Made by a program: the position numbers and the translations under genes
NCBI GenBank assembly: GCA_946183145.1
Contig: CAMGZM010000009.1
Coordinates: 1-64,000, forward strand
Length of the DNA stretch: 64,000 nt
Source: an uncultured Fretibacterium sp.
GTDB taxonomy: Bacteria > Synergistota > Synergistia > Synergistales > Aminobacteriaceae
Reading direction: 5' to 3'
Shown here: piece after piece, positions 41,624 through 60,759 of the stretch
Numbering within the stretch: the first letter of the stretch is position 1
Layout of the letters: every line of letters begins with the position of its first letter
Notes under the pieces: model-generated
The model's input: the letters and a program-made list of their open reading frames with translations, nothing else
Databases searched by the model: none
Told to the model about the DNA's origin: nothing

Positions 41624-42457
41624 ATGAAGAAGTTATTGCTTGCGTTTTTGATTGCGGGAATTTTCGCGGGTTCTGCGTTCGGAGCTGGCATGAGAATGGG
41701 AGCTTTGACACAGCAGAATATGAGCGCGGAAGAGTTCGCAGAGTTCATAAAGTCCCAGGAGAGAAATTTTTTCGGCTGGAAGATTATGAACACAAATCAC
41801 AGCCTTGAGGACTCATTCACATATTTTGACTCTCTAACGTCTATGATTATGGCTCTTCATTCCGGGAAAATTGACGAGGCCGCACTCCCTGAACCTGTTG
41901 CGGAATACGTCAAGACAACTGACGCGGGAGTCGAAATTTCCTGCGCGCTTCATTCGAGAACGACTCACCTTGCGTTAGGCTTCAGGAGCGATGACGGAGG
42001 GCAGAGACTCTGCGATATGGTGAACGGGGCATTATCGGCCATGAAATCAGACAGGAGACTCAGTATTCTCACGTCAAAATATCTTCACCGCCCTGGCACA
42101 ACACTCCCGGCTGCTGAATCGTTCGCGAGTTTTCCCGGTGCTGAAACGGTGAAAGTTGCCGTAACGGGAGATCTTCCCCCGCTCGACATGATTGCACCCG
42201 ACGGAAGGCCGATAGGGTACAACACCGCTGTATTGTCGGAAATCGGCAGGAGAATGGGAGTCAATATTGAGCTTGTGAACATTGACTCAGGTGCAAGAAC
42301 AAGCGCGTTAATGTCCGGGAGAGTCGATGCTGTTTTCTGGTATCAAGTCTGGGAAGGAGTCGAGAAACAGCCCGACGCTCCAGCAGGAGTCCTTCTCTCT
42401 GAGCCTTATTACGAGTGGGATACGTTCCTTCACTTGAGGCATTACGTGAGAGACTGA
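41624..42457 (+). CDS. Periplasmic solute-binding-like protein, permuted lobe order
   Basis: Signal peptide; C-lobe-like first half (YFDSLTSMIMALHSGKIDEAALPEPVAEYV...MVNGALSAMKSDRRLSILTSKY), then VAVTGDLPPLDMIAPDGRPIGYNTAVLSEIGRRMGVNIELVNID. Confidence 0.7.
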   Translation: MKKLLLAFLIAGIFAGSAFGAGMRMGALTQQNMSAEEFAEFIKSQERNFFGWKIMNTNHSLEDSFTYFDSLTSMIMALHSGKIDEAALPEPVAEYVKTTDAGVEISCALHSRTTHLALGFRSDDGGQRLCDMVNGALSAMKSDRRLSILTSKYLHRPGTTLPAAESFASFPGAETVKVAVTGDLPPLDMIAPDGRPIGYNTAVLSEIGRRMGVNIELVNIDSGARTSALMSGRVDAVFWYQVWEGVEKQPDAPAGVLLSEPYYEWDTFLHLRHYVRD

Positions 42458-54382: not shown

Positions 54383-55360
54383 TTAATATTTCAGGTATTT
54401 CCGTGTCTTTATCATATTTACAGCGAGAATGAACGCGCTTACGGTTTCTTTCTCCGCCGCGCCAAAACTGAAAACGCTTGAGGCAATAATTACAGCCGTT
54501 ATCCCTATGCCTATAGGACTCGTGAGCAAAGCCCCAAGGGGTGAAAGTATAGTGCCTATAGCGTGGCCGATTCCCTCAGCTATCAATATAAGTATCGTAC
54601 TGTCCGTAATCAGATCGACAATCAGCACGAATACAGTAGCAATTATTTTAGGAAGCCCCCATATTGTAATAGCTCCCTGAAGAGCCGCAAGAACCGCCGC
54701 TCCTTTCATGCCGGATATTGTTTCGTAGTCAATTTTAACGCCTGACTCCTTCTCTATGTTTTTTAGGAGTTCAACCCGTTTTTCATGCGGCATTTTGTCC
54801 CAAATATCCTCAAAATATTTCCCGGCTATTTTCGTCTCAAGCGCGAATGTAGGAAGGCTTTTCACCTGTTCTTTGCTAATTCCTGCTTTTTCCGCCGCCC
54901 ATTGAACTATCTCATGATAATTCACGTCCTGAGTGTTGCGTCCTAGGTATGTCAGCTTGTTGTATGCCCTGTAAACAAAGTTGCGCCGTATTTCTCTCAC
55001 AGTTATGGGGACTTTAATCAATCCTTTGTCTGAAGCGTCAATGACTGTAACGGGCAGAACTTCATTGAACGTTCCGGGCTTAAGCGGCTTTTCTGATGTT
55101 GCGCTTTTACTGTCTTTTGCGAAACGTGAAAGCTCAGGGAGTCCCTTAAGTTTTCCGAAATACTCATCTTTGAGGCCGGGAAATGCTTTCAGCGTCTGCA
55201 ATAACTGTACGCGCTCCTCGTCAGTGCAGTCTGAAAGAAAGTCTGTGAAGTCCTGCGGGGTTTCCTTGCGGGAATCTGAGAAGTAATATTTTGCTTCAGA
55301 TGCGTTTGACATTAATATAACAAAAATCATAACAGCGGCGGTAAATTTCACGCACTTCAA
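54383..55360 (-). CDS. Secreted/membrane protein, possibly YaaW-like
   Basis: Signal peptide; LSDCTDEERVQLLQTLK..., hydrophobic C-terminus. Confidence 0.4.
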   Translation of the reverse strand: MKCVKFTAAVMIFVILMSNASEAKYYFSDSRKETPQDFTDFLSDCTDEERVQLLQTLKAFPGLKDEYFGKLKGLPELSRFAKDSKSATSEKPLKPGTFNEVLPVTVIDASDKGLIKVPITVREIRRNFVYRAYNKLTYLGRNTQDVNYHEIVQWAAEKAGISKEQVKSLPTFALETKIAGKYFEDIWDKMPHEKRVELLKNIEKESGVKIDYETISGMKGAAVLAALQGAITIWGLPKIIATVFVLIVDLITDSTILILIAEGIGHAIGTILSPLGALLTSPIGIGITAVIIASSVFSFGAAEKETVSAFILAVNMIKTRKYLKY

Positions 55361-57458: not shown

Positions 57459-58208
57459 TTACCGTCTCAATACTTTTGAGAGAAATTCTATCGTTCGCGG
57501 CTGTTTGGGGTGATTGAACACTTCATCCGGCGTGCCTTCCTCGCTGATTATTCCCTTGTCGATGAATAGTACCCTGTGAGCTATCTTGTACGCAAAGCCC
57601 ATCTCATGAGTCACAAGATACATAGTCATTCCCGCGTCGGCAAGCTCCTGCATAACATCAAGAACCTCGCCGATCATTTCGGGGTCTAACGCGCTCGTAG
57701 GCTCATCGAACAGCAGGACATCAGGACTCATCGCCATAGCCCGGGCAATAGCGACTCTCTGCTTTTGCCCGCCCGATAACCTGTCAGGCCATTCGTCTAT
57801 CTTGTCAGCAAGTCCGACTCTCGCAAGAAGTTCATGTGCTTTCACGTCGGCTTCTTCCTGAGTCATCAATTTCTGGTCGACGGGGGCGAGCGTAAGATTC
57901 TTTCTCACTGTCAGATGCGGGAACAAATGAAAGTGCTGAAACACCATGCACATTTTACGCCGTACAAGATTTATGTTGCATGAAGGGGACGTAATATCTT
58001 CTCCGTTGAATGTGATTGTCCCGGAAGTAGGCTCCTCCATTCGGTTAAGGCAGCGGAGGAATGTAGATTTTCCCGAACCTGAAGGGCCGATTACCGCAAT
58101 TTTCTCACCTTTCACAATCTTTGTGTTTATCCCGTTGAGGACGTGCAGCTCTGTACCGTCAGGACGCACGAAAGTTTTGCGAAGGTCTTTCACTTCAATA
58201 ACCGCCAT
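57459..58208 (-). CDS. Amino-acid ABC transporter ATP-binding protein
   Basis: [58 protein letters not shown]. Confidence 0.95.
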
Positions 58209-58212
58209 TTTC

Positions 58213-59022
58213 TTACCTCCTGCCCCTGCTTAACCATTGTTCGAGCTTCTTTACGAGCTTGCTTAACACCATAACCATAATCAGATAGATGATTGCTACC
58301 ATGACTAACGGCTGTGAATGTTCGAGCGTAAGAGCCTGTATATTCTGCCCGGCCCGTGTCAAGTCGTCAATGCCTATATACCCGGCTATTGATGTCTCTT
58401 TCAGCAACGCTATGAACTCGTTGAACAGCATCGGCACAACGTTGCGCAATGCCTGCGGTAATATTACGTGCCTCATTGATGAGCCGTATGTGAGTCCGAG
58501 AGATCTTGCGGCTTCCATCTGCCCCGCGTCAATAGACTCGATTCCGCCCCTGAAGATTTCCGCGACATATGCCCCCGAATTAAGCCCGAATGCTAATATC
58601 GCTATGTACTGCGTGTTGAGGTCTCTAGCTGATGCAAAAATCGTGAAGTTCCATATCAATAACTGCACCATTGCAGGAGTCCCGCGCAAAACAGTTATGT
58701 ACGTCTCCGCAAACTTGTTGAGAACGGGAATATGCACGCCGCCTTTGTACGCAACACGTATAACGCTGAGTATCAATCCGACAATAACGCCGATTACTGT
58801 TGCGCCCGCCGTCATGAAGAGAGTCGATTTCAGTCCGTCAACAAGCATCATATAGCGGTCATCCTTCACGAAATTCTGATAGAACCTCCTGTTGAAGTCC
58901 GACCAAGCCTCAGCCGTAAAGAATCCCGAACGCCACAGCAAAAACACAAGGAACGCGCCGACAATCCACAGCAATAAATCTCCGCGCCCTGCTCCTGAAT
59001 ACGTCTTACTTCTCATAGTCAT
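58213..59022 (-). CDS. Amino-acid ABC transporter permease
   Basis: [68 protein letters not shown]. Confidence 0.94.
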
Positions 59023-59803
59023 CTGCCCGGATTAATGCTACCTGCTTCGCGCCCGTAACGTAGTTGTCGGAGAAGTCCATATTCTCTTTGCGCTCGTCTG
59101 TTACGGTAATCCCCGCACAAATCATGTCAACTTTTCCCGTTGATACTGCTGTGGGGAGCGAGTCAAAATTCATGTTGATGATTACGAGTTCTTTGCCGAG
59201 CTTCTTTGCGATGTTCGCGCACATTTCCACGTCGATTCCTATGAAGCTGTTTCCGACTTTAAGCTCATAGGGCGCAAATCCTGCCTCTGTTCCTACGTAG
59301 AGTTTTCCGCCCTTCGCGCCCTTGTTGAAGTCGATATTTTCAGGCTTCACCGCTGAATAATCGCCGTCAATGTATTTCGCCATAATCGCGGCTAATGTCC
59401 CGTCAGCTTTCATTTCAGCAAGAATTTTGTTGACCTGTGAGACTAGCTCCGTATTTCCCTTCTTGAAGCCGATCGCGTAACTTTCCTCCGTCAAAGGCTT
59501 CTCCATAATAGCGAGTCCGTCAACTTCCTTCACGAATCTTTTTGCGGGCATTTCGTCCATGATTACCGCGCGGATTTTCCCCTGCCGTAAAGCCGCTACT
59601 GCGTCAACGTATTTCTCGTATGTCGTGAGAAGCTCACCTTTCTTGTCGCCGAGCATGTCCTCAGCTATGAGCTGTCCGACAGTACCTCGCTGTGCCGCAA
59701 GCCTTTCTGTTTTGAGCTGGTCAGTGTCCTTCAGCTTTTCACCCTCAGCAAAAGCACACGAGCATAACGCAAGAACGAGTAATAACGCGAGAAACTTTTT
59801 CAT
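59006..59803 (-). CDS. Amino-acid ABC substrate-binding protein with circularly permuted lobe order
   Basis: Signal peptide, then lobe-2 and C-terminal helix motifs (EMKADGTLAAIMAKYIDGDYS), then canonical N-terminal motif KLYVGTEAGFAPYELKVGNSFIGIDVEMCANIAKKLG. Confidence 0.9.
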   Translation of the reverse strand: MKKFLALLLVLALCSCAFAEGEKLKDTDQLKTERLAAQRGTVGQLIAEDMLGDKKGELLTTYEKYVDAVAALRQGKIRAVIMDEMPAKRFVKEVDGLAIMEKPLTEESYAIGFKKGNTELVSQVNKILAEMKADGTLAAIMAKYIDGDYSAVKPENIDFNKGAKGGKLYVGTEAGFAPYELKVGNSFIGIDVEMCANIAKKLGKELVIINMNFDSLPTAVSTGKVDMICAGITVTDERKENMDFSDNYVTGAKQVALIRADDYEK

Positions 59804-59931: not shown

Positions 59932-60759
59932 ATGAGAAGATTTTTGCTTGCTTTAACGGCGGTTATGATTTTCGCGGGCGTTTCATTCGCGGGAGTCTTC
60001 AACGTAGGAATATTGACTCAGCTCAACTCGACAAAGGACGCGTTCAAGAATTTTATGGACGGCGCATTAGCTGCGGGATTATGGACTCGCTACGAGTCAG
60101 GCACAGTTGACAGCAACAATAACACGGCAATGTTCACGTTTTATGACTCACTTTTGGCCATGATCATGGGACTCGACCGCGGGGAAATTGAAGAAATTGC
60201 TCTCCCTGAAGCTGTCGGAAAATATATTCTCTCGAAACGCCCGGAATATTTCGTGGCTGCCGAATCAATTTCACGTCCTGTATTTTTCGCGATGGGATTC
60301 AGGAAGGAAGACGGAGAAGAGTTAATGCAGAAATTCAACGGTGCAATCAAGTCCATGAATGAAGACGGAACATTAGCGGCAATCAAAGAGAAATACATCA
60401 CAAATTTTGACGTTCCTTCACAGCCTGTGAGCTTCACGAATTTTGACGGCGCACAAACGATATGGACTGCCGTAACTGGAGACTTGCCCCCGGTTGATTA
60501 CGTTGATGAAGCGGGCAATCCGTCAGGCTTCAACATTGCTTTACTCACCGAAATTGGCAGAAGGCTTGAGATTAACATTGAGATTATCTACGTAAACTCA
60601 GGCGCGAGGGCTTCCGCATTGGCCTCAAAACGTGCTGACGTGGTATTCTGCTTCAGGGTCTACAGCTGGGACGGGATTCAGCCGGATTTGCCTTCAGGGG
60701 TCATTGTGTCGGACTCATATTTTGACTGGACGAAATATCTTCACATCCACAAGAAGTAA
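59932..60759 (+). CDS. Solute-binding-like protein, permuted lobe order; paralog of 41624..42457
   Basis: Signal peptide; SMNEDGTLAAIKEKYI precedes AVTGDLPPVDYVDEAGNPSGFNIALLTEIGRRLEINIEIIYVNSGARASAL. Confidence 0.75.
   Translation: MRRFLLALTAVMIFAGVSFAGVFNVGILTQLNSTKDAFKNFMDGALAAGLWTRYESGTVDSNNNTAMFTFYDSLLAMIMGLDRGEIEEIALPEAVGKYILSKRPEYFVAAESISRPVFFAMGFRKEDGEELMQKFNGAIKSMNEDGTLAAIKEKYITNFDVPSQPVSFTNFDGAQTIWTAVTGDLPPVDYVDEAGNPSGFNIALLTEIGRRLEINIEIIYVNSGARASALASKRADVVFCFRVYSWDGIQPDLPSGVIVSDSYFDWTKYLHIHKK

Follow-up and report, generated by a model that had tools for sequence, protein, structure and literature searches.

A natural circular permutant of the SBP_bac_3 solute-binding proteins in a Synergistota importer operon, with permuted relatives in Clostridia

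Known binding proteins and the window gene

The SBP_bac_3 family (PF00497, cluster F) includes the solute-binding proteins (SBPs) GlnH, HisJ, ArtJ and TmArgBP. We call the N-terminal half of such a protein A, and lobe 2 together with the C-terminal helices B. In GlnPQ, substrate-binding domains (SBDs) in the order A-B-A-B are fused to the permease, and each A-B folds as a unit (PDB 6h30; PMC8025302). Circular permutation has been described in other binding proteins. TpMglB-2 (Tp0684) of Treponema pallidum is a permuted type I SBP, which was solved in 2016 and for which the name Type Ic/Cluster Bc was proposed (PMC4990184). Among type II proteins, permutation relations were detected with CPSARST between glycine betaine, molybdate and CysB proteins (PMC2395249).

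The gene described here lies in the window, the whole stretch of 64,000 nucleotides that was analysed, from an uncultured Fretibacterium sp. (contig CAMGZM010000009.1). Its product shares with canonical SBP_bac_3 proteins the same halves by sequence, the Arg, Asp and Gly-Thr contacts and the operon partners, but the halves are swapped, and the termini are at the edge of lobe 2 and the hinge, whereas canonical termini are in lobe 1. The protein aligns along B1-linker-A2 of the GlnPQ tandem, which is likely the kind of evolutionary intermediate involved. The GlnPQ tandem is fused to its permease, while the window protein is a lone B-A unit encoded by a separate gene. Like the window protein, TpMglB-2 is a natural circularly permuted SBP, and it still binds its ligand and closes (PMC4990184), but it has a type I, cluster B sugar-binding fold, another cut site and an unrelated origin. 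OpuAC and ProX are likewise related by circular permutation among type II binding proteins (PMC2395249). That relation was detected by structure, at less than 24% identity and between distant subfamilies, whereas the SBP_bac_3 pairs found here reach 74% (A) and 61% (B) and have the same ligand motif. Searches of an open-access library turned up no description of naturally permuted amino-acid SBPs of the SBP_bac_3 family. Natural permutation of SBPs is already known; that it recurs in a single family of amino-acid SBPs looks undescribed in the literature searched.

Order, fold and conservation of the window gene

The first-pass annotation had claimed that the gene is a circular permutant whose mature protein starts in lobe 2, with a linker at about residues 146-166 and a cut near the lobe hinge, and each of these points holds (Table 1). 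From the ATG at 59803 to the stop at 59006, the reading frame encodes a signal peptide, then lobe 2 with the C-terminal helices, the linker and the classical N-terminal half. PF00497 matches the protein with 116.4 bits, compared to a curated cut-off of 26.4, in two stretches in swapped order, the better of which aligns residues 169-261 with profile positions 2-93. This is the pattern that had been predicted, and a co-linear match over the whole protein was absent. NCBIfam matches are split in the same swapped order. When the PDB was searched by sequence, chain 4zv1 also matched in two pieces, with query residues 166-262 on chain residues 10-107 and query residues 22-144 on chain residues 107-230. 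The only near-full-length co-linear PDB match was 6h30, in which query residues 17-262 align with chain residues 95-333, the second part of SBD1 and the first part of SBD2 of the GlnPQ tandem.

Table 1. Features of the window discussed in the text
Feature	Positions	Strand	Basis
Another group II permuted SBP_bac_3	41624..42457	+	Half-domain HMMs
Predicted membrane or secreted protein, 325 aa, without a Pfam match	54383..55360	-	
ABC ATPase, GlnQ/TcyN-like	57459..58208	-	Pfam and NCBIfam
Amino-acid ABC permease (PF00528; best NCBIfam match cystine/glutamine permeases)	58213..59022	-	
Permuted SBP_bac_3 solute-binding protein, 265 aa	59006..59803	-	ORF, Pfam and PDB sequence matches, half-domain HMMs
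Segment A, residues 167-262 (canonical residues ~10-107): N-terminal lobe-1 half and first hinge strand; contains E173, F176, T233, R238	59018..59305	-	
Linker, residues 146-166 (21 residues), old C-terminus to old N-terminus	59306..59368	-	Ordered in model, conserved
Segment B, residues 22-145 (canonical residues ~107-230): lobe 2, second hinge strand and two C-terminal helices; contains G40/T41, D83	59369..59740	-	
Signal peptide, about residues 1-19	59747..59803	-	Sequence MKKFLALLLVLALCSCAFA and low pLDDT in model
Second permuted SBP_bac_3, group II, transcribed divergently	59932..60759	+	Pfam, half-domain HMMs

The co-linear order of SBP_bac_3 in cluster F (lobe 1a - lobe 2 - lobe 1b) is thus not the order of this protein, and due to the swapped, split matches it can be filed only as a circular permutant of SBP_bac_3 (PF00497). 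Half-domain HMMs for A and B sort proteins cleanly into A-B and B-A orders. The Pfam search gave no match to OpuAC (PF04069), and there were no matches to the type I sugar-binding fold; the protein matches SBP_bac_3 type II proteins only. With E-values from 1e-32 to 1e-43, and with the full-length gene present in 33 of the 37 genomes of the genus, chance is excluded. These results confirm that the window SBP is a natural circular permutant.

The AlphaFold2 (AF2) model of the protein has a pLDDT of 92.1 and a pTM of 0.83, with pLDDT values of 87-92 in the linker. The model was built from 40 sequences; some rows are A or B alone, taken from canonical proteins, and are uninformative on order. Two long strands, 105-114 and 249-259, lie at the expected hinge positions, and the latter forms the C-terminus. 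With Foldseek, which aligns sequentially, the best full-length match had a TM of 0.54 (OpuAC), and no co-linear full-length PDB fold match exceeded this value. A single-lobe match to ArgBP domain 1 was also obtained, and superposition on the 6h30 tandem was meaningless (19-21 A). This outcome is what a permutant should give. Based on the order of the sequence and the secondary structure of the model, the two halves would fold into the usual two-lobed Venus-flytrap with its binding site unchanged. The 21 ordered linker residues would tie the old C-terminal helix to the old first strand, and the chain would be opened at the entry of the first hinge strand into lobe 2. With the chain opened there, one of the two hinge strands would be a free C-terminus and one covalent crossover between the lobes would be left. 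We infer that covalent continuity is lost in this one hinge strand.

Another possible arrangement is that the halves pair between molecules, in a domain-swapped dimer or with a partner protein, instead of within one chain. Termini at the hinge would permit an exchange of halves, the multi-SBD arrays described below carry many halves per chain, and the canonical relative TmArgBP forms swapped dimers. We consider this arrangement improbable since the B-to-A linker is short, near-fixed in length and ordered in the monomer model, and a single B-A unit can stand by itself or be part of a permease chain (L108, L099). Pairing within one chain remains the preferred reading.

The gene was also said to be in a complete operon with a permease and an ATPase, and both genes do lie directly downstream of it. 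The first 17 nt of the permease gene overlap the SBP gene, and the SBP-permease-ATPase operon is present in nearly all named loci with sufficient flank. In the window the SBP and permease are separate, overlapping genes; SBD-permease fusions are found elsewhere in the same genome. Adjoining the operon, in convergent orientation, are cysK-cysE-like genes. This context, together with the best permease match, a cystine permease, is a weak hint on the ligand. The ligand of the window SBP is probably an amino acid, possibly cystine or some other polar one.

At 70-95% identity, the full-length gene is present in those 33 genomes of the genus, and two more contain fragments that are cut off. Among named metagenome-assembled genomes (MAGs), 21 that were assembled independently show the same order at 75-95% identity. 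The named records come from Synergistaceae MAGs of rumen and gut, and the gene is also present in further genera of this family. Compared to six orthologues, dN/dS (Nei-Gojobori) is 0.05-0.10 for the whole protein and is also low for each half and for the linker. Within group I (20 sequences), R238, D83 and G40 are each found in 20/20 and T233 in 18/20. From the alignment, we take these to be the equivalents of R75, D157, G119 and T70 of GlnBP, where the Arg, the Asp and the Gly of RGT hold the backbone of the amino acid. The group I alignment shows that the window SBP keeps the residues in contact with the carboxylate and amino groups of the ligand. The gene is intact and under strong purifying selection, which includes the linker.

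Since the order of the window gene is the middle of a tandem such as SBD1-SBD2 of GlnPQ, and nearby group II genes have lost ligand-contact residues, the gene could be what is left of a tandem SBP (B1-linker-A2), decaying and non-functional and still open by chance. The low dN/dS, the invariant ligand residues, the conserved operon and the well-ordered model make this very unlikely. With high confidence, the gene encodes a functional amino-acid-binding protein for an ABC importer, of type II (cluster F, SBP_bac_3) and circularly permuted. The protein would bind an L-amino acid and hand it over to the permease and ATPase encoded just downstream.

Permuted relatives in Synergistota and Clostridia

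The window gene is not unique. It is one of many permuted genes, a point absent from the first-pass annotation. The stretches read from its genome contain 13 single B-A proteins, one six-B-A permease fusion and three canonical proteins. The group II genes in the window are divergent and have lost the canonical ligand-contact residues. The one next to the window SBP gene has a dN of 0.10 and a dS of 0.46 compared to its closest homologue, and its AF2 model is weaker (pLDDT 76.6, pTM 0.73). Divergent permuted SBP-like genes form an expanded group that includes both window genes, L077 and L074:2944-6477, where four of them are in tandem and adjoin a permease and an ATPase. The members of this group have lost the amino-acid contact residues and may bind something else.

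Permease fusions in the genus carry 1, 2, 3, 6, 7, 8 or 12 B-A units, the longest being 3,249 aa, compared to two SBDs in GlnPQ. Another family has single chains of B-A-permease and B-A-permease-ATPase. All complete arrays have B as the first element and A as the last. Across the permuted permease arrays, the linker from B to A measures 19 +/- 0.95 aa (n=70) and carries the conserved motif W..G.DES....DY..LP..NG. The A-to-B junction varies and is longer than the canonical one, ranging from 12 to 35 aa (n=59), compared to 9-17 in canonical proteins (n=28). The joint inside the unit is fixed and conserved and the joint between units is loose, which argues that the permuted B-A is the folding unit of the arrays.

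Chains with up to 12 permuted SBDs on one permease were seen at L102:3857-13606 (+) and also at L104, L103 and L072. The ATPases of the array transporters carry an additional C-terminal region of about 100 aa (L072:9916-10998, L106:5484-6572, L108:1261-2349, L099:2523-3839, L074:7418-8800), which by eye resembles an RsbW/GHKL-type domain and has no significant Pfam match. An 899-aa chain, L122:1995-4694, combines a permuted SBD, a permease and an ATPase with the additional C-terminal region, and a 910-aa Clostridial chain, L161:1653-4385, may resemble it.

Full-length matches to the permuted profile were found in genomes of rumen Clostridia. In a class-wide sample of 291 genomes, single B-A proteins, judged by match span, are present in at least about 20. 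A second pattern, with a match from profile position 85-99 to the end, is present in more than 30; these counts were made by eye and are lower bounds. All 11 loci of the second pattern that were read (11/11) have the order B2-A-B1, in which the cut falls within lobe 2, past the helix that comes after the ligand-binding Asp. Two further Clostridial loci are cut earlier within lobe 2. The 22 single Clostridial B-A proteins placed in the tree are mostly followed by permease and ATPase genes, and Clostridia also have B-A fused to a permease. When the PDB was searched with Clostridial B-A and B2-A-B1 proteins, no chain of permuted order was found except the 6h30 tandem. At L168:1683-3530 (-), also in Clostridia, a permuted SBP_bac_3 unit follows a region like a type I periplasmic binding protein.

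Some candidates were discarded. Clostridial L035-L042 looked permuted in the match table and are canonical by sequence, with permuted genes elsewhere in the same genomes. In a plasmid and chromid collection, records matched in two pieces, and the three that were read (L188-L190) are canonical. Judged from the sequences read and the tree described below, Clostridia carry the permutation of the window gene and two others cut inside lobe 2, of independent origins.

Number, route and meaning of the permutations

The number of events was examined on a tree of 70 proteins with their halves set in a common order. The loci were picked for looking permuted, so the tree does not give population frequencies. 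Canonical and permuted proteins are intermixed on it, and 14 topology changes are needed. Canonical L037 and permuted L150 have 74% identity in A and 61% in B. The window gene groups with stand-alone B-A proteins of Clostridia (98/94), and the fused arrays of both phyla form a separate clade (99/86). One clade of all B2-A-B1 proteins is rejected (AU p 5e-5).

A single ancient event behind all permuted proteins would be compatible with Synergistota alone, where the AU test does not reject a common clade of the permuted sequences (AU p 0.44). With Clostridia added, however, the array clade separates from the clade of the window gene, and single clades are rejected both for all permuted rows (lnL 303 lower, AU p 6e-68) and for all B-A (AU p 9e-43). 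The starred branches also force at least five label changes for canonical proteins, and the chain is cut at no fewer than three different points, leaving a single origin with very little probability. Misassembly or a chimera made from two half genes, which the first-pass annotation had named as the threat to its reading and which does happen in metagenome bins, as these genomes mostly are, can be dismissed since dozens of independently assembled genomes have the same order, among them the 21 named MAGs and the 33 of 37 genomes of the genus, and some Clostridial permuted genes are on contigs of 3.0, 4.0 and 4.9 Mb, which argues against binning artefacts.

Repeated permutation, then, is the reading we prefer. 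It would have occurred in both Synergistota and Clostridia, with the chain opened at three or more places, each of them inside lobe 2 or at its edge. The arrays suggest that the most likely route is duplication, fusion and loss, in which SBP units would duplicate, fuse in frame and then lose the outer A at the start and the outer B at the end. Since there are arrays with n from 1 to 12, all registers exist. It is likely, in our judgment, that SBP_bac_3 proteins in Clostridia and Synergistota have switched often between the canonical and at least three permuted orders with their function kept, helped by tandem SBD arrays that already hold every register.

Natural circular permutations are usually single old events between distant proteins, whereas here close relatives have opposite topologies. 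Together with the stepping-stone-like arrays, these relatives make the permutation-by-duplication model directly testable. The effect of one cut hinge strand on Venus-flytrap closure also becomes testable, and the design of permuted biosensors can take the natural cut sites as a guide. Annotation by family profile conceals the permuted proteins as ordinary "substrate-binding domain-containing" genes. The repeated rearrangement at several cut points in gut bacteria means that topology is unusually changeable in a common SBP family.
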